Assembly (NCBI GenBank): GCA_016933115.1
Contig: JAFGBL010000236.1
Span: forward strand, 1 to 59,386
Origin: Bacteroidales bacterium
GTDB taxonomy: Bacteria > Bacteroidota > Bacteroidia > Bacteroidales > JAADJA01
Direction of reading: 5' to 3'
Length of the DNA stretch: 59,386 bases
The number at the start of each line of letters is the position of its first letter. Within the stretch, counting starts at the first letter, position 1. Positions 24,746 to 34,704 of the stretch are shown here, piece by piece. The notes beneath the pieces are model-generated. The model did no database searches. It worked only from the letters and a program-made list of their open reading frames with translations, and was not told the origin of the DNA. Both the position numbers and the translations under genes were made by a program.

Positions 24746-24769
24746 CCACAATTCTCTAAATTAATATCT

Positions 24770-24988
24770 TTAGCTTTTGTGCATATTGAAGGCCTTTTTA
24801 GCCGCATATCCGGCACCCATTACCAGCATAATCACCAATCCACTGCCAACAGGCGATCCACCACCAACGGGATCATCACCACTGCCGGGTCCTCCACCCG
24901 GATCCGGCGGCTGATCAGCCATTGCCCCGATTGAAAATACGATTGCCAGGATGGTGGTTAAAAGCAGGTTTTGTATTTTTCTGACCAT
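24770..24988 (-). CDS. Small secreted Gly/Pro-rich peptide with C-terminal hydrophobic helix
   Basis: 72 residues in three parts: a signal peptide (about 1-24, ending ..GAMA); a Gly/Pro/Asp-rich linker (about 25-48, with PDPGGGPGSGDDPVGGG); then SPVGSGLVIMLVMGAGYAAK and a short basic tail. This layout recalls the small Bacteroidota proteins with a C-terminal PIDGG-like motif, helix and basic tail (PID-CTERM-type sorting peptides), with PVGSG in place of PIDGG. That resemblance is from memory and the function is unknown. It has its own terminator and is divergent from the TonB receptor gene, so it is probably monocistronic. Confidence 0.7.
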   Translation of the reverse strand: MVRKIQNLLLTTILAIVFSIGAMADQPPDPGGGPGSGDDPVGGGSPVGSGLVIMLVMGAGYAAKKAFNMHKS

Positions 24989-25066
24989 ATCGAATAAAAT
25001 TATTTCCGTAACGTATTATAAAGCGATTATACTTCAATTTGTTCAAAAGGATACAAAATTATTTGG

Positions 25067-25115: not shown

Positions 25116-27479
25116 ATGAAAAATTTTGTTCTTTTAGTTGTTTTTTTCCTAGCCTTTCTGGCAACGCAATCCCAGGAAAAATCAAGTATTTCAGGCAACT
25201 TGATTGACCAGCAAACATCACAACCGGTGGCCAATGCCGAAATTATTTTAATTGAAGATTCTATCATCACCACATCCGATGATAATGGTTATTTTGTTTT
25301 TAAGAACCTGCCGAAAGGATATTATTCAATTCGAATCAGGCATATCGCGTATCATGATGTTGTAAAAAAAATCAAACTGAATACAGGTGAAAACATCGAT
25401 CTGAAATTTACCCTAACGGGCAAATCGCTGCAACTGGAGGAATTCATTGTGGAAAGCGAATCGGAAACCGACCAGATCATCAGCAAGCTTCCATATATTG
25501 AAACATCGATCGTTAAAAGGGAAATGGACAAGAATGCCTCCCGCGACGTCGGTGATTTTTTAAGGTCGTCCAATAATATAGGTGGAATTCGGAAAGGTGG
25601 CACCCAACTCGATCCTGTCGTCAGGGGATTTAAATACAGCCAGCTAAATATTCAAATGAACAACGGCCAAAAAATTGAAGGTGGCTGCCCGAACCGCATG
25701 GACCCTGCCACTGCACACGTCGAAATAGAAGATATAGAAAAAATTGAAGTGTACAAAGGGCCCTATGCTTTGAGGTACGGCCAGTCATTCGGCGGTGTGA
25801 TCAACCTGAAGACTGTCAGGCCTGAACCTTCCGATTCATTTCAGATTCATATCAATGCATTGAAAGGCTATGAAAGCAATTGGAATGGGAACAAGGAACA
25901 ACTTGCGGTTCAGGGAGAAAGCAAAAAAGTATTTTTTAACCTTTCGGGCGGAAGAAAAGATTATGGTAATTATAAAGACGGAAACAGCAACGAGGTGAAA
26001 ACTTCTTTTAAAAAATACAACTACAAAGGCCAACTGGGATTCGTTCCTCATAAAAATCACAGTATTATAATGACTTACGAAGAATCCAATGGAAGGGATG
26101 TCAGCTTCCCTACACTCCCGATGGATGAACGAAAAGATGATACCCGATTGATTTCACTTGATTATAATGCCGGTGATATAACAGGTTTAATAAATTCATT
26201 TAATTTGAAATTGTACAATTCAGACGTTCGACATGAAATGGACACAAAGGAAAGGCCTTTCTCCGACACAACTGTTGCCGTATCGATCATCAATGCCTTA
26301 AATCAGGGTGGAAGGCTGGAAGCAGGAATTCCATTGAGTAAAGGTTTACTGTATGCCGGAGTTGATTTTGAACAGATCAAAAAAGACGGAGAACGTACGA
26401 AGACCATGATCAAACAGCCAGGCCTCCCGGTCAAACGGGAGCAATTGTGGAACAATGCAGAAATCAACAACTTTGGCGTATTTGCCGAATATTCGATTAC
26501 CCTGGGAAAATTTGAGCTGGTTGCCGCCTCCCGCCTCGATTTCAATAAAGGGATATCCGACAGTATTTTGGTGATGCATCCTATGCAGGGTGAGATATTT
26601 CATTACAGTACCGATTCCATACAATCCGAATACATTAATTTTAGCATTAGTGCCGGAGCCAACCAAAAAATAACTCAAAACCTGACGTTATCCTTATCAC
26701 TGGGCCGTGGTGTTCGTAGTCCGGATATGACCGAACGTTATATTATCCTGCTTCCGATCGGATATGACAAATTCGATTATCTGGGCGATCCGCAATTGAA
26801 ACCCGAAACCAACAATCAGGCTGATCTGACAGTAAAATTTACTTCACATAAAATCGGGTTGCTGCAAGTCAACGGATTTTATTCGCTGGTGAATGATTAT
26901 ATCACGGGTAAAAGGCTTCCACCGAGTATTCAGAAACCGCTCACCCAGGATGTACTGGGTGTAAAACAGTTTTACAATGCCGGAAATGCCAGGTTCAGAG
27001 GATTTGAATTAACTTATTCCACGCCATTGCATTTAAAATTCGGCATAAAGCTTTATTCATCGTATACCTGTGCGACCCTCGACAAAGTGCATAAATACAT
27101 CCTTAACGACCAGGGGAGCGTAGTGGATGATGTTGAATTGGAAAATGATGCACTGACTGAGATTCCCCCTTTCGAATCCAAAATTGTTGTTCACTACCGG
27201 TTTTTCAAGGGCAAGTTCATTCCCCAGTTGAGTTACCGCATCGTTGCTGCCCAAAATCATGTTTCGGAAGCTTCTTATGAACAAGAGACCCCGGGATTTT
27301 CCGTTATCGGATTTTCTTTTACTTACCTGTTCAATAAATACTTCACAGTCAGCGGGGGAGTTGACAATATTTTTGACAAAGCCTACTATGAACACCTGAA
27401 CCGGAATATCATCGGAAGCAACGGTAACCTCTACGAACCGGGAAGGGTATTTTTTGTAAATTTATTTTTTAAAATCTGA
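25116..27479 (+). CDS. TonB-dependent outer membrane receptor with OprC-like copper site motifs
   Basis: 787 residues from the ATG at 25116, which directly precedes a signal peptide (MKNFVLLVVFFLAFLATQSQ); a start 55 codons upstream would bury it. Order: signal peptide, carboxypeptidase-regulatory-like domain (about 25-110), plug (about 115-235) and a 22-strand-type beta-barrel ending in aromatic FFVNLFFKI. The plug contains GGCPNRMDP (Cys191 and Met195, a CxxxM pattern) and the barrel contains HEM (His373, Met375, HxM). Together CxxxM and HxM form the copper site described for Pseudomonas OprC. With MbnP-like and MbnH-like genes downstream, import of copper or a copper chelate is likely (inference). 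It leads a five-gene operon with 13- to overlapping-base junctions. Confidence 0.88.
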   Translation: MKNFVLLVVFFLAFLATQSQEKSSISGNLIDQQTSQPVANAEIILIEDSIITTSDDNGYFVFKNLPKGYYSIRIRHIAYHDVVKKIKLNTGENIDLKFTLTGKSLQLEEFIVESESETDQIISKLPYIETSIVKREMDKNASRDVGDFLRSSNNIGGIRKGGTQLDPVVRGFKYSQLNIQMNNGQKIEGGCPNRMDPATAHVEIEDIEKIEVYKGPYALRYGQSFGGVINLKTVRPEPSDSFQIHINALKGYESNWNGNKEQLAVQGESKKVFFNLSGGRKDYGNYKDGNSNEVKTSFKKYNYKGQLGFVPHKNHSIIMTYEESNGRDVSFPTLPMDERKDDTRLISLDYNAGDITGLINSFNLKLYNSDVRHEMDTKERPFSDTTVAVSIINALNQGGRLEAGIPLSKGLLYAGVDFEQIKKDGERTKTMIKQPGLPVKREQLWNNAEINNFGVFAEYSITLGKFELVAASRLDFNKGISDSILVMHPMQGEIFHYSTDSIQSEYINFSISAGANQKITQNLTLSLSLGRGVRSPDMTERYIILLPIGYDKFDYLGDPQLKPETNNQADLTVKFTSHKIGLLQVNGFYSLVNDYITGKRLPPSIQKPLTQDVLGVKQFYNAGNARFRGFELTYSTPLHLKFGIKLYSSYTCATLDKVHKYILNDQGSVVDDVELENDALTEIPPFESKIVVHYRFFKGKFIPQLSYRIVAAQNHVSEASYEQETPGFSVIGFSFTYLFNKYFTVSGGVDNIFDKAYYEHLNRNIIGSNGNLYEPGRVFFVNLFFKI

Positions 27480-27492
27480 TACTAATTTCAGG

Positions 27493-27852
27493 ATGAAAAA
27501 GTTAATTTTTGTAGCATTTGTTTTATTGGTTATTTTCGCATGCGATGAAGAAAATTCACCGGTAAAAGTCCAATATAGGGTTAGTGATGCTTATGCTGAG
27601 ACTCATATATCTTATCAAAATGAATCGGGAAGTTTGGAATCGGAAACCATCAATTTTCAGAGTGCGGAAGACACTTGGAATTATTCATTTGAAGCCAAAC
27701 ATGGGGATATTGTCTATATCTCAGCACAATATGCCGATACAGCATCCTCGGTTAATATAAGCATTCTGTTAGATGGAAAGGTTTATAAAGAAAAATACAG
27801 TGAAAGCGAACCGGGTAAAATTATTACAGTTTCAGGGACAATTCCATTTTAG
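27493..27852 (+). CDS. Small lipoprotein of the copper-type operon
   Basis: 119 residues beginning with a lipoprotein signal (..LLVIFACDEEN, lipidated Cys at about residue 17). The mature part is beta-rich with no motif I recognise, for instance around VSDAYAETHISYQNESGS; it looks like one small beta-sandwich. Position directly after the TonB receptor and before the MbnP-like gene suggests a periplasm-facing or surface accessory factor for the same substrate. Its 3' end overlaps the long reading frame of the next gene by 80 bases. Confidence 0.7.
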   Translation: MKKLIFVAFVLLVIFACDEENSPVKVQYRVSDAYAETHISYQNESGSLESETINFQSAEDTWNYSFEAKHGDIVYISAQYADTASSVNISILLDGKVYKEKYSESEPGKIITVSGTIPF

Positions 27853-28669
27853 GAAAAGAAGCCTGACCACAGCTTTATTCTTCTTATCGCTGACCATTCT
27901 GATCAGCAGTTGTTCTGATAAAGAGGAGGAAAGTCCAACTCAAACAAGCGGAAAACTTTCGATTCAATTTAGTCATTTAATAAATGGCCAACCCGTGCAA
28001 TTCGATACGCTCATATATACCAATGAGGCTGATAATCCTTATATGATAAACGAAATTCAATATTTCATTTCGGATGTTGTACTTTATAAAAGCGATGGTT
28101 CAGAAAAAACAATTGACGATTGGGAGGATCACCATTATGTAGATACGGATATAACTTCAACCTTCAGGTGGGAAGTTTATGATGACATTGGATCGGGTAT
28201 ATATGATTCGATTTCCTTTATATTTGGTTTCAAAGATGAAAAAAACATGTCTTTCATGTTTGTAAATCCACCTGAACGCGACATGTTCTGGCCGGAATAC
28301 CTGGGTGGTGGTTATCATTACCTGAAATTAAACGGCAAATGGCTCGAACCGGATCAAACCATCCAAACAACACCATTTGATTTCCATTTGGGCAGGGGGC
28401 AGATTTATTACTCCTATCCCGATTCAATTACAGGTTTTGTTTCTAACGAATTCAGGGTATCTTTGCAGGGTTCCGGTTTTATTGTTCAGCCAGGCATAAC
28501 AACTGAAGTGACACTGGTGATGAACATTGAAAAATGGTTCAAAGAACCGAATATTTACGATCATAATGTTTATGGCGGCTATATCATGCAGAATCAGGAT
28601 GCAATGGAAAAGGTGAAAGAAAACGGACACAATGTATTTACATTTTTATCAAAGGAAATAAACCAATGA
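27773..28669 (+). CDS. MbnP-like copper-associated lipoprotein
   Basis: Up to 298 residues. The body matches the MbnP family: SIQFSHLINGQPVQFDTLIY, NEIQYFISDVVLY, then MFWPEYLGGGYHYLKLNG and FDFHLGRGQ. MbnP proteins bind copper after a partner MbnH oxidises a Trp, and the Trp-bearing motif is visible here. The start is uncertain: the only ATG in frame (27773) lies inside the previous gene and puts about 26 residues before a normal lipoprotein signal (RKRSLTTALFFLSLTILISSC). A CTG at 27863 follows a purine-rich stretch and could be used instead. The stop overlaps the next start (ATGA). Confidence 0.8.
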   Translation: MERFIKKNTVKANRVKLLQFQGQFHFRKRSLTTALFFLSLTILISSCSDKEEESPTQTSGKLSIQFSHLINGQPVQFDTLIYTNEADNPYMINEIQYFISDVVLYKSDGSEKTIDDWEDHHYVDTDITSTFRWEVYDDIGSGIYDSISFIFGFKDEKNMSFMFVNPPERDMFWPEYLGGGYHYLKLNGKWLEPDQTIQTTPFDFHLGRGQIYYSYPDSITGFVSNEFRVSLQGSGFIVQPGITTEVTLVMNIEKWFKEPNIYDHNVYGGYIMQNQDAMEKVKENGHNVFTFLSKEINQ

Positions 28670-29310
28670 AATACTGGGCCATATTCGGATTGTTTTTGAT
28701 CATAGCCGGATCAGTTTCTTGCAAAAAAACCGACGACCTGCCACCTGTTCTTACCCTTAAGGGCGATACATTGGTAAGTCACATACTCAACACCACCTAT
28801 GTGGATCAGGGTGCAACTGCCACTGACGAAACCGACGGAAATCTGAATTCTGAAATTTTTATCGATAATGCGGTCAATGAGGACCTTGTCGGGGAATATA
28901 CAGTTACCTACAAGGTATTGGATAAGGCAGGCAATGAAGCAGCCCCGGTATCGCGAACCGTCCAGGTTTATAACCAGGGATGGATTTATATGGGCGCCTA
29001 TCATTTATCCGAATCGGAAACATTCACGGGAAGCGATACCTGTAGCTATGATATTATTGTTGGTGCGGATTCAAGTTTGAATTACAGGCTCAATTTTTCG
29101 GATTTCGTATGCCAGTATGGGCATCAGGTTTTTGCTGATGTCATCGATACGACCATTATTATACCTTTTCAATTGTTGAGTGATACAATCCCAGTCATAT
29201 CAGTTCAGGGAAGCGGTATTATAAATGACACTATCATACAACTGGAATACACCCGAAAGGTAAATAATGAGCCCTTTTACTGGAAAGCTGCATTAATTAG
29301 ACTACAATGA
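28666..29310 (+). CDS. Lipoprotein with DUF5011 Ig-like domain
   Basis: 214 residues. Lipoprotein signal ..IIAGSVSCKKTDD (Cys about residue 19). About 25-105 form a DUF5011 bacterial Ig-like domain (PPVLTLKGDTLVSH, then YVDQGATATDETDG, GEYTVTYKVLDKAGN, all signatures of the family). The remaining about 110 residues form an unrecognised beta-rich domain with Cys near SDTCSYDI and FVCQYG. DUF5011 is usually a spacer or adhesion module. Overlaps of 4 bases with both neighbours show tight translational coupling with the MbnP- and MbnH-like genes, so it is likely part of the same envelope complex. Confidence 0.8.
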   Translation: MKYWAIFGLFLIIAGSVSCKKTDDLPPVLTLKGDTLVSHILNTTYVDQGATATDETDGNLNSEIFIDNAVNEDLVGEYTVTYKVLDKAGNEAAPVSRTVQVYNQGWIYMGAYHLSESETFTGSDTCSYDIIVGADSSLNYRLNFSDFVCQYGHQVFADVIDTTIIIPFQLLSDTIPVISVQGSGIINDTIIQLEYTRKVNNEPFYWKAALIRLQ

Positions 29311-30419
29311 AAACATACAACTTTATATGGACTATTCTGGTTTTAACTTCCATCTTGTTTTCTTGTAAAAATAATGAGGATGAAGAACCGGATCATACTT
29401 ATCAGCCGACACCCTATAATATTGATATACCATTTGGTTTTCCAACCAGGATTTACATTCCGGATGACAACCCATTGACCGTTGAAGGAATTGAACTTGG
29501 CCGCTACCTGTTTTACGATACACGGTTGGCCGGGAGGGCGGACGAGGGAAAACTGATGAGCTGCAGTTCATGCCACAAGCAGGAAAACGGGTTTATTATA
29601 GGATTACCGCGCCCCCACCCCTTCGGACTTGACAGCATTCCTACCCACCATGCCATGCTGCCTTTGATAAATCTGATTTGGAATCCCGGCCACCTGGGCT
29701 GGAACGGAAGTGTATCTTCCATTGAGGATGATGTGCTTGCAGTGATCACAGATCCAAGCGAATTTGGAAGCAGTTTTGAAGCCGTTGAGAAAGCAATTAC
29801 AGAAATTCCAGGATACCCGGAATTATTTGAAAAAGCCTTTGGAAGCAAGGAAGTTAAAGTGGAACGGATAGCCAAAGCGATCGCACAATTCGTCAGAACA
29901 ATTATTTCTGCAGATTCCAAATTTGATAAATACCTGCGGGGAGAGATTCAACTCACCAATGCGGAACTTCACGGATTCGTTTTGTTTACCACAGAGGAAG
30001 GCGCCGATTGTTTCCACTGCCATGGCGGAGCGGGAAACCCTTTGTTCACAACAAACCTGTTTTACAACAACGGCAAGGATACGGTTTTTACCGATCCGGT
30101 TGACAGGTATTCGATCACAGGCGATCCAATGGATAAAGGAGCATACAAGGCTTCAACCTTACGCAATATTGAATATACGGCACCCTATATGCACGATGGA
30201 AGATTCAATACACTGGATGAAGTAATTAATTTTTACAGTCATGAACTTCAATGGTCACCCCAAATTGATCCATTGATGCATCATATAGCAAACAATGGTA
30301 CACAACTGACGCCTATTGAAAAAGAAGATTTAAAGGCATTTTTATACACATTATCCGATACCGCATTTTTGAACAACCCGGAATTGGGTAAACCCGATAA
30401 ATTCCCTGACGAACAATAA
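29307..30419 (+). CDS. Di-haem cytochrome c peroxidase family lipoprotein (MbnH/MauG-like)
   Basis: 370 residues. Lipoprotein signal ..LTSILFSCKNNEDEE; then a di-haem peroxidase fold with two CxxCH haem sites, CSSCH (Cys86, Cys89, His90) and CFHCH (Cys235, Cys238, His239). The conserved GAYKASTLRNIEYTAPYMHD segment before the C-terminal helix is a hallmark of CCP/MauG proteins. In methanobactin-linked operons MbnH uses such haems to oxidise a Trp of MbnP to kynurenine. The adjacency to an MbnP-like gene makes that the best guess, over a plain hydrogen peroxide-reducing CcpA. It is the last gene of the operon; no terminator was found in the 76 bases after it. Confidence 0.88.
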   Translation: MKTYNFIWTILVLTSILFSCKNNEDEEPDHTYQPTPYNIDIPFGFPTRIYIPDDNPLTVEGIELGRYLFYDTRLAGRADEGKLMSCSSCHKQENGFIIGLPRPHPFGLDSIPTHHAMLPLINLIWNPGHLGWNGSVSSIEDDVLAVITDPSEFGSSFEAVEKAITEIPGYPELFEKAFGSKEVKVERIAKAIAQFVRTIISADSKFDKYLRGEIQLTNAELHGFVLFTTEEGADCFHCHGGAGNPLFTTNLFYNNGKDTVFTDPVDRYSITGDPMDKGAYKASTLRNIEYTAPYMHDGRFNTLDEVINFYSHELQWSPQIDPLMHHIANNGTQLTPIEKEDLKAFLYTLSDTAFLNNPELGKPDKFPDEQ

Positions 30420-30495: not shown

Positions 30496-33400
30496 ATGAA
30501 ATCTTTATTTAACCGTTTTATCACCTTGGTTTTGATATTATTGACAATCCATTACACAATCATTGCTCAAAACGATAAGTATTCCACAACCGATACAGCC
30601 AAATTAGCACCGCTTTCAGCGATGGATTCCATAGCACTGGTCAATCTGCCCGAACTTAAATTACCGGATTGGCTTAAAGGGCCCAATCCTCCGACACTGC
30701 CCGAAATTACCGACAACTCCCAACAAATCTACTGGAGGCCGGTTTTCGCGCAATCCATGTATGAATGCGGGCAGGCCAGCGGTATCGGGCTGGGATTTAC
30801 ATATGCGATAAACCGTTTGCGGAATTTACCATCAAATGTTCCTGAAAACCAGTATCCGGCCTATTTTACCTGGAATTTTGGAAACGAGGGCAGTGGATGG
30901 TCCGGAGTAAGTTATTTCCACAGTTTCGAAATTGTTAAGTTGGAAGGTAATCCGACAGTAGCAGTTTACGGAGGAATGATTGAAGGAGGCCATGAAAGGT
31001 GGATGAGTGGTTATAATAATTATTACCATGCCATGCAAAACCGGCTGGCCGATATCTACAAGATTGATGTATCAAAGGAAGAAGGGATCAACACCCTCCG
31101 AAACTGGATTCATAATCACTTAGACGGATCGGATGTTGGGGGTGTAGCCAATTTTTATACCAATGCACCATCAGGAATGCCAACCCTTCCTTCGGGCACG
31201 CCGGAGGCCGGCAAATATGTTGTAACCGGCTGGAGTTATGCCAACCACGGTCTCACCATATGCGGCTACCACGATTCCATTCGGTGGGATTATAATAGTG
31301 ATGGTCAGTACACCAATAATATCGACCTGAACGGGGATGGAATCATAACCCCGCGTGATTGGGAAATCGGGGGATTTAAGTTTGCAAATACATACAGTGG
31401 CGGACCTAGCTTCGGAAATAACGGATTTTGCTATATGACTTATAAATCATGTGCCGATCCTTACGGAAACGGGGGAATCTGGGATAATGCAGCCCATGTT
31501 ATCTATGCGAAGGCCAATACCGAACCTTTGTTAACGGCGAAGATCAACATGACCTACAATTGCCGTAACAGGATCAGGGTTCAGATTGGCATGTCGACAA
31601 ATACCAATGCAACCTCTCCGGATTACATTCTTGGATTTCCGATCTTTAATTACCAGGGGGGCTGCCAGTATATGCAGGGGGATACCACAGTCGAAGCCAA
31701 TAAAACCATTGAGTTTGGATTGGATATTACACCGTTGTTGAATATTCTGGGAACGGGAACACCGGCCAGGTATTTCCTGGTAATCGATGAAAACGACCCC
31801 GAAGGCTGGGGCTGGGGTCAGGTGAATAGCTTTTCAATTATAGATTATAACAACGGGGTACAGGAAATTACCAGTACCCAATCCAATGTCGCCATTGTTT
31901 CAAACGGACAAACCCTTCTCTGGGCAAACCATACTGTAAATTTTAATGACATTGAAATTATATCCGAGGTTCTTCCCACGGCAACCATTTATGAACCATA
32001 CAGCACACAATTGCAGGCTGCTGGTGGAACACAACCCTATATTTGGGAATTCGACAGAAATTATTCGGAAACATTTACTTCAGGAACTTTTCCAAGTGTC
32101 AATACCGAACAGCTTAATCCCGGAAATAATGACGACGGATATGCCACAAAATCGCTGGGATTTTCTTTTCCTTTTCATGGAAGCGAATACAATGAGGTTA
32201 GGATAAACGTAGATGGATACATATCATTCGACGATATGGTTTCCTGGCCGTATGCAGTTTATGATTTCTTCAATTTCACAAAGAATAAGCTGATTTCACC
32301 TTTCCAATCCAACCTTGTATTGAATTCAGCGGATGCCGACGGAATGTGGTATAACGGAAACGAGGACCTGGCAACCTTCCGTTGGAAAGCTTCGGTAAAC
32401 GGAGATGAAAGTGCATCGAACCTCAATTTCGCAGTGAGGTTGTATAAAACCGGTGAAATTCGGTTCTATTACGGAACAAACACATTCACCGATATTGAGT
32501 GGGTCGCAGGATTGTCGGCAGGGGATAATTTATTTTATCAATTTTCTGCATTATCCAACCATGCTTCAATTCCATACGGTTATGTTACCATATTCAATCC
32601 TTTCTATCAACCGGTTGACTTTAACCTTACACGCGACGGTATTCTGTCAGGGATTCCGTCGGATGAGTATGCTAATTTACCCATTAAAGTCAGGGTAACC
32701 GATGAAAACAACCTAAAGACCTCCAAAGAAGTTGTCATGCCAATTTATGGACTGCTTATCGATGAAGTGACCATTAATGCAGAGGGAGATCAGATCATAG
32801 AATATGGCGAAGAGGTGTTTCTTACCGTTTCAATCAAAAATATAAGCGCTCAGGCAATCTCCGGAGCAGAAATGACAATTTTTAATACAGATACCTTTAT
32901 CACCTTAAACGACAATTATCAGAATCTGGGAAATTTTAGTGCCGGAGAAACAAAATATTTCACCGATGCTTTTCAATTCAATGTCGACTATGCTATTCCT
33001 GATGGCTATTTTTTCGAATTGGCAACTCAAATTGAAGAGAACCTGGGTGAGATCTGGGAGAGTTCGATCGGTTTGACAGGCTATTCGGCAATTTTATCGA
33101 CAGGTTCTGTTGTGGTATATGACGAAGGCAATGGATTTATTGAGCCGGGAGAAATTGTAGACTTGCAGGTTGAAATTGTGAACGATGGAGGTGCCAAAGC
33201 CACCAATATACTTACTGAACTTTTGATAGATGATGAATATGCAACAATCATCAATGGTTCAGCCAACCTGGCACAACTGGTTGGAAACAGCACCGCCAAT
33301 GTTATTTATACAATCCATGTTTCTGAATCTACTCCCATCGGGTATAATCTTGCATTTAATGTTGACATTGAAGCTGATTTTAATATTTCAGGATCCGGGC

Positions 33401-34704
33401 AATTCAATATAGTTGTAGGGCAACGCCCGCTATTGATCATTGACCTGGACGACAATAACAACTCCGCGCCTTATATCGAAGCATCCATGGATAATCTGGG
33501 TATGCTGTATGAAACTTCAAGTAGTTTTCCCCTCGATCTGAATATTTATCCCGGGATTTTCGTGTGTCTGGGTATTTACCCAAACAACCATGTGCTGACA
33601 TCCAACCAGGGCATTAATCTGGCCAACTATTTAAATAACGGAGGAAAGCTTTTTATGGAAGGAGGCGATACCTGGGCCTATGATGCCCAAACTGCCGCAC
33701 ACACCATGTTCTTTATTGATGGAACCGATGACGGGACTTCGGATATGTTAACGGTTATTGGAAAACCTTCGACATTTACACAGGGAATGAGCTTCGTTTA
33801 TACCGGAGAAAACAGCTGGATGGATCACCTGGTTCCTTTGGGATCGGCTTTTACGATCCTTGAAAACCAGTCGCCTGTGTATGGAACAGCCATCGCTTAT
33901 GACGGAGGAACCTATAAAACCATTGGAACTGCTCATGAATTTGGCGGATTGGCCGATGGAGGTTCTCCATCGACCAAAGATGAATTGATGACGGCTTATT
34001 TAGATTTTTTTGAGTTATTACCGCCGCCAGTTTTTGCAGTTGACCTGACCGTATTACTCGAAGGGCCTTACAATGGAACCGAAATGAACACCGCATTGAA
34101 TAACCAAAGTTTAATCCCATTAAGTCAACCTTACAATACAAGCCCCTGGAATTATAATGTACCCCAAAGCGTTGATTTTATCCCTAACAGTAATATCGTT
34201 GACTGGTTGTTAATTGAGTGCCGGGATGCACCCGATGCTGCCTCCGCAATACCTTCCACCTCTTTTGGAATGAAAGCCGCCTTTTTATTGAAAGATGGTT
34301 CGGTGGTAGGTATGGACGGTTCATCGCCACTGTATTTTCAACATAAAATTGATAATGGACTATTTATAGTGGTTTGGCACAGAAATCACCTTGGAATATT
34401 GTCAGCCAATCCGCTTTCAGGGTTCAATAATATTTATGCACGAAATTTTTCAACCGGCCCTAATACTGTTTATGGCGGAGCATCGGCACATAAAGAAATC
34501 GTTCCGGGAAAATGGGGTATGAGGTCAGGTGACGGTGACGGTGATGGGGAAGTGTCCTGGAATGATATAATTACTATTTGGTCCGCAAATGCCGGTCGGA
34601 AACAATATCACAAGGCCGATTATAACCTGGATGGACAAATTGACAATACAGATAAAAACGGAATGGTTTTTCCTAACCTCGGTTATACCGGTCAATCTGA
34701 TTAG
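30496..34704 (+). CDS. Large secreted papain-like (C1) protein with dockerin-like C-terminus
   Basis: 1402 residues. Signal peptide (..TIHYTIIAQ). About 60-340 look like a C1 peptidase domain: QSMYECGQASGIGLGFTYAI carries the candidate nucleophile Cys91, ANHGLTICGY the candidate His251, and FKFANTYSGG a candidate Asn. The middle holds Ig-like and CARDB-like beta domains, for example SIKNISAQAISGAEMTIFN and VDLQVEIVNDGGAKATNI, and a Rossmann-like stretch near 995-1100. The C-terminus (about 1345-1395) has two calcium-loop patterns, DGDGDGEVSWNDI and DYNLDGQIDNTDKNG, like a dockerin type I module. No T9SS sorting domain is seen, which is odd for such a large secreted Bacteroidota protein. Confidence 0.75.
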   Translation: MKSLFNRFITLVLILLTIHYTIIAQNDKYSTTDTAKLAPLSAMDSIALVNLPELKLPDWLKGPNPPTLPEITDNSQQIYWRPVFAQSMYECGQASGIGLGFTYAINRLRNLPSNVPENQYPAYFTWNFGNEGSGWSGVSYFHSFEIVKLEGNPTVAVYGGMIEGGHERWMSGYNNYYHAMQNRLADIYKIDVSKEEGINTLRNWIHNHLDGSDVGGVANFYTNAPSGMPTLPSGTPEAGKYVVTGWSYANHGLTICGYHDSIRWDYNSDGQYTNNIDLNGDGIITPRDWEIGGFKFANTYSGGPSFGNNGFCYMTYKSCADPYGNGGIWDNAAHVIYAKANTEPLLTAKINMTYNCRNRIRVQIGMSTNTNATSPDYILGFPIFNYQGGCQYMQGDTTVEANKTIEFGLDITPLLNILGTGTPARYFLVIDENDPEGWGWGQVNSFSIIDYNNGVQEITSTQSNVAIVSNGQTLLWANHTVNFNDIEIISEVLPTATIYEPYSTQLQAAGGTQPYIWEFDRNYSETFTSGTFPSVNTEQLNPGNNDDGYATKSLGFSFPFHGSEYNEVRINVDGYISFDDMVSWPYAVYDFFNFTKNKLISPFQSNLVLNSADADGMWYNGNEDLATFRWKASVNGDESASNLNFAVRLYKTGEIRFYYGTNTFTDIEWVAGLSAGDNLFYQFSALSNHASIPYGYVTIFNPFYQPVDFNLTRDGILSGIPSDEYANLPIKVRVTDENNLKTSKEVVMPIYGLLIDEVTINAEGDQIIEYGEEVFLTVSIKNISAQAISGAEMTIFNTDTFITLNDNYQNLGNFSAGETKYFTDAFQFNVDYAIPDGYFFELATQIEENLGEIWESSIGLTGYSAILSTGSVVVYDEGNGFIEPGEIVDLQVEIVNDGGAKATNILTELLIDDEYATIINGSANLAQLVGNSTANVIYTIHVSESTPIGYNLAFNVDIEADFNISGSGQFNIVVGQRPLLIIDLDDNNNSAPYIEASMDNLGMLYETSSSFPLDLNIYPGIFVCLGIYPNNHVLTSNQGINLANYLNNGGKLFMEGGDTWAYDAQTAAHTMFFIDGTDDGTSDMLTVIGKPSTFTQGMSFVYTGENSWMDHLVPLGSAFTILENQSPVYGTAIAYDGGTYKTIGTAHEFGGLADGGSPSTKDELMTAYLDFFELLPPPVFAVDLTVLLEGPYNGTEMNTALNNQSLIPLSQPYNTSPWNYNVPQSVDFIPNSNIVDWLLIECRDAPDAASAIPSTSFGMKAAFLLKDGSVVGMDGSSPLYFQHKIDNGLFIVVWHRNHLGILSANPLSGFNNIYARNFSTGPNTVYGGASAHKEIVPGKWGMRSGDGDGDGEVSWNDIITIWSANAGRKQYHKADYNLDGQIDNTDKNGMVFPNLGYTGQSD

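Follow-up and report, generated by a model that had tools for sequence, protein, structure and literature searches.

Copper uptake by Gram-negative bacteria is poorly known, and the role of the MbnP/MbnH protein pair outside of methanotrophs is open. In OprC of Pseudomonas, copper is bound by the Cys and Met of a CxxxM motif and the His and Met of an HxM motif (PMC8610252). MopE, together with SACCP, sits on the surface of Methylococcus (PMC3912023), and the sequences of MopE and CorA are not markedly similar to that of MbnP (PMC3621798). Here, a compact and recurrent operon is described in which an MbnP/MbnH pair accompanies a receptor that has the copper site of OprC. The operon lies at positions 25116-30419 of contig JAFGBL010000236.1 from a Bacteroidales genome (GCA_016933115.1), and the whole of the 59,386-nucleotide stretch analyzed is referred to as the window. 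A sequence-only reading of this DNA, which had proposed an OprC-like receptor, MbnP- and MbnH-like lipoproteins, and two other lipoproteins, is confirmed: the five plus-strand frames encode an OprC-type TonB receptor, a 119-amino acid lipoprotein, MbnP, an immunoglobulin (Ig)-like lipoprotein, and MbnH, a gene set that recurs in a group of mostly uncultured Bacteroidales. The operon is likely to be an outer-membrane copper acquisition system, and the copper site of its MbnP is probably completed by the heme enzyme through oxidation of a single Trp.

The closest solved sequence relative of the receptor is OprC (6fok, E 3e-35), and the alignment places Cys191-Pro-Asn-Arg-Met195 on CPNRM of OprC and His373-Glu-Met375 on HIM. 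The CxxxM and HxM motifs that had been noticed in the receptor are present, and both this alignment and the OprC matches of the structural model identify them as homologs of the two motifs that meet in OprC. All of the 28 top Protein Data Bank (PDB) matches of the AlphaFold model (mean predicted local distance difference test score, pLDDT, 85) are OprC (best E 4e-42), with 22-23% identity in the structure alignments. Further, since Cys191, Met195, His373, and Met375 are invariant in 49 of 49 sequences of alignment A4, made up of the window receptor and 48 relatives from named contigs chosen by length and score, the motifs are not a chance occurrence. All four ligands are also kept in nine distant receptors (phmmer E <1e-20) from stretches of the phylum that carry both MbnP and MbnH. 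The receptor scores 241 of the 472 bits required by the NCBIfam model TIGR01778 (TonB-copper equivalog), indicating an OprC-type receptor outside of that curated equivalog. By homology, it is predicted to bind copper through the four OprC ligands and to import it with TonB. Receptors that score at least 430 bits against the window receptor (class A, including three partial matches assigned by identity) occur in 47 genomes, 45 of which have MbnP, and those that score 270 to 365 bits (class B) occur in 16. Four class B receptors share a contig with a NosZ match, at a distance of some 4 to 6.5 kb (G509:C211, G494:C223, G312:C217, and G443:C31), and three of these four genomes hold a class A receptor too. 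A NosA-like receptor thus exists apart from the MbnP-linked one.

In the main paper on MbnP (PNAS 2021), the first Trp of a WxW motif is said to become kynurenine and a Met and a His to bind copper; a neighborhood analysis is reportedly part of the same paper. The MbnP of the window matches PF20243 with 87.6 bits (cut-off 27), and its model (mean pLDDT 93) matches six chains of 7l6g, the MbnP of Methylosinus, with E values of 9e-8 to 1.5e-6 and a probability of 1.00, the next match having an E value of 0.09. PDB sequence searches with the single window MbnP and with profile A1 found no MbnP, the best match of the latter being the unrelated CyaY (E 0.08). A profile of 30 family members (A2) aligned to 7l6g (E 2e-7), with the MxWxW and HxG of 7l6g on the columns of MFWP and HLG of the window protein, indicating that the His, the first Trp of WxW, and the Met two residues before it are kept. 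The conserved Trp on which the sequence-only reading depended is present as Trp143. Only this first Trp of the WxW motif stands: the second is absent, and W-P-x-x-[LM]-G-G-G-Y-H takes the place of the motif. With one Trp and no WxW, the protein scores 19.6 of the 140 bits required by TIGR04052 (MbnP-like WxW equivalog). The WP form was found in 72 of 76 MbnP frames of the window's order by a search with the Pfam model, and a phylum-wide sample contained WxW in 72 of 85 frames and the WP form in 4 of 85. Of 161 MbnP frames, a set that leaves out frames longer than 420 amino acids such as that of L071, 155 keep both the Trp and the His; the other six comprise that of L218, which is cut, the second frames of L076 and L087, and the frames of L083, L197, and L217. 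In alignment A3, WPxx[LM]GGGYH is constant by construction because the underlying scan used that pattern; A1 and the 161-frame set, which were gathered with the Pfam model, do not carry this bias.

Because a P-x-x-L-G-G-G-Y-H stretch replaces the second Trp of WxW, MbnH might generate another oxidation product on MbnP, such as hydroxy-Trp or a cross-link to Tyr151, Tyr153, or His152. The prevalence of the WP variant in the order and the invariance of G149, G150, and H152 in all 41 rows of A1 would fit such chemistry, but the first Trp, which is reported to be the one converted to kynurenine, is kept along with the Met and the His, and we regard a different product as improbable.

The MbnH-like lipoprotein carries the two CxxCH sites reported for it, at residues 86-90 and 235-239. 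Its top solved match is 6e1c (E 2e-43), listed as 'di-heme enzyme' and taken here to be MbnH, and its top NCBIfam model is MbnH (TIGR04039), yet below the cut-off (203 of 363 bits). Scores of related proteins against the window MbnH split into two groups, one of at least 306 bits and one of at most 106 bits. Position 310, presumably the column of the distal heme ligand as known from MauG and peroxidases, is Tyr in 63 of 63 rows of the first group, the MbnH class (two of which are loci counted twice), while 31 other peroxidases have Met (26), Tyr (3), or another residue (2). Like MbnH, the window enzyme has the Tyr and not the peroxidase Met. Outside of the order, two MbnH-like genes occur in tandem after MbnP at loci L065, L068, L075, L080, L085, L086, L098, and L115.

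PF20243 was detected in 67 of 247 genomes sampled across the phylum and in 72 of 295 sampled from the window's order. Among 82 MbnP stretches of the phylum, from which the three weakest PF20243 matches are omitted, 80 contain a frame that resembles MbnH (phmmer E ≤1e-5) and 9 contain a receptor with all four ligands. A total of 75 loci of the order were typed (excluding L197, whose PF20243 match is below the phmmer threshold), with MbnH present at 44, the receptor at 37, and both together at 26, some loci being cut by contig ends. The complete five-gene order, for which a search in Bacteroidota had been suggested, recurs at 9 of 80 loci from named contigs, and the same order minus the Ig-like lipoprotein at 29 further loci; these 80 are the best of at least 580 candidates, and some of their contigs are shared with the 75-locus set. 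Most titles among the matches listed are Bacteroidales or Bacteroidetes metagenome-assembled genomes, and a few name Chlorobiota or other groups. At 18 of 75 order loci, the stretch contains MbnP and MbnH but no receptor; this and the membership of MbnH in the peroxidase superfamily would suit surface copper defense or redox buffering, in which MbnP keeps copper outside, MbnH deals with peroxide, and the receptor is a bystander or sensor with no net import. Nevertheless, the receptor carries the OprC fold and ligands, OprC is reported to acquire copper and to be copper-repressed (PMC8610252), and MbnH has a Tyr where ordinary peroxidases have Met, making defense a rather unlikely account of the operon.

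MbnP and MbnH tend to co-occur. MbnH-like enzymes were found in 67 of 72 MbnP genomes of the order versus 7 of the 223 without MbnP (Fisher p 9e-52, kinship ignored), whereas higher-scoring peroxidases showed no link (10 of 72 versus 33 of 223). Here, MbnH-like denotes peroxidases of the 295 order genomes with a Pfam score of 85-140 bits, and the higher group those with at least 140 bits. Score serves as a proxy for enzyme class: the MbnH of a second pair in the window genome falls in the higher group. This second MbnP-MbnH pair (G000:C163; L070 2373-4307, minus strand) keeps the Trp, Met, and His, and no receptor was found beside it in the L070 stretch. The adjacency of the two genes in the window often fails in relatives, with no adjacent MbnH at 31 of 75 order MbnP loci in one tally and at 26 of 75 in another. 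The possibility that MbnP works without oxidation at these loci was rejected: in the 27 genomes checked, all but those of L152, L165, L171, and L218 and including those of L177 and L202, whose loci are cut within 400 bp, a CCP_MauG protein is encoded elsewhere in 26, and 14 of 14 such proteins retrieved belong to the MbnH class. No evident copper gene was adjacent to the unlinked MbnH in three stretches, judged from the first residues of the frames. The best quick MbnP tree implies 11 changes in the linkage of MbnP and MbnH, and fewer if only supported branches are counted. A Lys/Met switch at MbnP residue 155 was considered as a signal of linkage. The residue is Lys at 40 of the 44 order loci whose stretch includes MbnH, whereas the 31 without it have Met at 16 and Lys at 13; likewise, named-contig loci with at least 1500 bp downstream have 47 Lys and 1 Gln with MbnH versus 15 Met and 5 Lys without it. 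This candidate was rejected as kinship, given 3 changes on the MbnP tree and independent pairs that do not follow linkage.

Of the seven genomes with an enzyme in the MbnH-like score range and no MbnP, five were checked, the other two being G295 and G533: the enzymes of G376, G456, and G350 are not MbnH, and those of G266 and G291 are. Five MbnP genomes have no MbnH-like enzyme: in G431 and G531 the sequence stops at MbnP, the G359 genome has a completeness of 87% and 2.3 kb of sequence beyond MbnP, and the MbnPs of the remaining two, G464 (L217 7832-8623: MQTP, FYLG) and G309 (L197 7824-8588: MWFAS, YKIG), have lost both Trp and His. These last two homologs possibly have another function.

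In all four window lipoproteins, each with a lipoprotein-type Cys, the sequence after the lipid Cys is acidic (DEENSP, SDKEEE, KKTDDL, and KNNEDE), resembling K-(D/E)2, the surface export signal of Capnocytophaga lipoproteins (PMC5080379). At least two acidic residues follow the lipid Cys in 67 of 107 MbnP, 52 of 79 MbnH, 50 of 70 119-amino acid, and 16 of 16 Ig-like lipoproteins, compared to 14 of 109 other predicted lipoproteins, a poor background with possibly spurious frames and overlapping sets. The acidic residues hint that the four lipoproteins may be surface-exposed, although the comparison with other lipoproteins is weak. The 119-amino acid lipoprotein has no Pfam family above cut-off and, the lipid Cys aside, no invariant Cys, His, or Met.

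Taken as a copper acquisition system, the operon could operate as follows. By analogy with the characterized pair, the MbnH lipoprotein would oxidize Trp143 of MbnP to kynurenine, and Met141, His175, and the oxidized Trp143 would form the copper site. In Bacteroidota, these lipoproteins are probably outward-facing, and MbnP would therefore catch Cu(I) at the cell surface; it could then pass the copper to the receptor, much as the BtuG lid acts on BtuB, with the 119-amino acid and Ig-like lipoproteins as putative further parts of the receptor complex. In its fullest form, which is put forward tentatively and is doubtful as a whole, this would be a lidded Bacteroidales copper importer, in which surface lipoproteins form a cap over an OprC-type receptor and the MbnP lid works only after an outward-facing di-heme enzyme has turned one Trp to kynurenine. 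Enzyme and lid would be retained together though their genes part, and loss of the enzyme would be followed by decay of the copper site. A natural one-Trp form of the kynurenine site and natural losses, namely two MbnPs lacking Trp and His in genomes that lack the enzyme, make the need for the enzyme testable.

The sequence-only reading had remarked on an absence of visible methanobactin genes, and this holds as far as was read: no MbnB-type maturase was found in the window genome, which is 88% complete. The sole PF05114 protein scores as HvfB (392 bits, cut-off 360) and not as MbnB (46 bits, cut-off 325), HvfB being a maturase of a ribosomally synthesized and post-translationally modified peptide (RiPP) metallophore and different from MbnB. 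It belongs to an HvfA/HvfB/HvfC-like set (G000:C34:6471-7259; L349 720-2795, minus strand) with a divergent sigma-factor-like frame; the HvfC match has 141 bits, just below the cut-off of 142, and the set is of the kind that makes a RiPP metallophore with oxazolone/thioamide groups. The substrate of the receptor could then be a metallophore charged with copper, such as the HvfA peptide that this genome encodes, rather than bare copper ions, and MbnPH pairs of methanotrophs do have MbnT-like receptors nearby (PMC3621798). However, the Hvf-type set is unlinked to the operon, on a separate contig, and the receptor is of the OprC kind, leaving only a small chance that a metallophore is what it imports. 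The notion that copper serves oxidases or N2O reductase as its sole purpose was rejected as weak: COX1 is present in 42 of 72 MbnP genomes versus 87 of 223 others, and NosZ in 7 of 72 versus 11 of 223.

Several observations weigh against copper acquisition by a receptor working with an oxidized MbnP. With 30 of 72 MbnP genomes having no clear COX1 (29 counting one weak match) and NosZ being rare, the use of copper is not clear, raising the question of what copper serves in the many carriers without a clear heme-copper oxidase. No such receptor is in the stretch at 38 of 75 order loci, some of them cut by contig ends, and a motif search of six weaker, unaligned TonB-receptor frames near MbnP/MbnH pairs of the phylum gave no CxxxM. 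In MbnP, the WxW motif is altered throughout much of the window's order, and 14 of the 155 frames that keep Trp and His have a residue other than Met at the Met position (Asn in six), indicating that the family at large does not always have this Met. The MbnP of G088 (L083 5889-7719) has no Trp and an MbnH-like gene is still adjacent, a counterexample to strict coupling of enzyme and copper site. In addition, the p-values for pairing are blind to kinship, the background for the acidic residues is poor, and the copper response, the kynurenine, and the surface location are inferred.

Coordinates of the operon and of its predicted functional residues in the window
Feature	Position	Strand	Basis
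OprC-type TonB-dependent receptor, 787 aa, N-terminal CarboxypepD_reg-like domain	25116..27479	+	Family, alignment, model matches
Receptor Cys191-Pro-Asn-Arg-Met195 codons (CxxxM)	25686..25700	+	Alignment to OprC, A4
Receptor His373-Glu-Met375 codons (HxM)	26232..26240	+	Alignment to OprC, A4
119-aa lipoprotein	27493..27852	+	Present in 45/80 loci from named contigs
MbnP-family lipoprotein, uncertain start codon, lipid Cys at about 27911	27773..28669	+	Pfam, model
MbnP Met141-Phe-Trp143 codons (residues numbered from 27863), predicted copper-binding Met and predicted kynurenine Trp	28283..28291	+	Alignments
MbnP His175 codon (F-H-L-G), predicted copper His	28385..28387	+	Alignments
Ig-like lipoprotein, PF16403 and C-terminal part	28666..29310	+	Present in 12/80 loci from named contigs
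MbnH-class di-heme lipoprotein	29307..30419	+	Pfam, NCBIfam, PDB sequence match
MbnH first heme site, C86-S-S-C-H90	29562..29576	+	Sequence
MbnH second heme site, C235-F-H-C-H239	30009..30023	+	Sequence
MbnH Tyr310 codon, column Met in 26/31 other di-heme peroxidases	30234..30236	+	Alignment

A gap of 13 bp separates the receptor from the 119-amino acid lipoprotein gene, the MbnP frame overlaps the latter by 80 bp (its start codon being unsure), and overlaps of 4 bp join the Ig-like lipoprotein gene to that of MbnP and the MbnH gene to that of the Ig-like lipoprotein. A frame of 1402 amino acids follows the operon (30496-34704). It weakly matches EF-hand toward its end and has no family above the Pfam or NCBIfam cut-offs, and nothing ties it to the operon. 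Upstream, a small divergent frame (about 24760-24990, minus strand) has a signal-like start, a Gly/Pro-rich middle, and a hydrophobic stretch; reverse-strand sequence that resembles it by eye also precedes the receptor in L219 (JAHLKX010000003.1) and L224. A common upstream motif was sought in 43 pre-receptor stretches, yielding only A+T-rich words that each occur in few of them.

Every part of the operon is already known singly. The Bacteroidales operon, the one-Trp variant, and pairing in trans were not found in the open-access literature, which misses most subscription papers; that literature likewise yielded no paper with 'metallo-mystery pair' or with both MbnP and Bacteroidota, which is no proof of absence in print. 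Compared to OprC/NosA of Pseudomonas (PMC8610252), the window receptor has the same fold and the same CxxxM and HxM ligands, but differs in its low identity, its score below the TIGR01778 cut-off, its N-terminal CarboxypepD_reg-like domain, and an operon with four lipoproteins. With the methanotroph MbnP/MbnH pair (7l6g and 6e1c), the locus shares the MbnP fold, the Met, first Trp, and His, and a two-heme enzyme with Tyr, whereas it has a single Trp followed by an insertion where the pair has WxW, scores below both NCBIfam cut-offs, includes an OprC-like receptor, and has relatives in which MbnH is often unlinked. The MopE/SACCP and CorA/CorB systems of methanotrophs (PMC3912023) are alike in having a surface copper protein with kynurenine and a di-heme partner gene, but MopE and CorA hold copper with two His and kynurenine (PMC3912023). 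The BtuB-BtuG system of Bacteroides (PMC10404256) similarly combines a TonB receptor with substrate-binding surface lipoproteins; its substrate is vitamin B12 and not copper, and the likeness to the window operon is an analogy that we infer. Lastly, CruR (DUF2946) operons count OprC-type receptors and MbnPH-like genes among their members, as does the operon described here, although they belong mostly to Proteobacteria, a phylum other than that of the window (PMC9426467).

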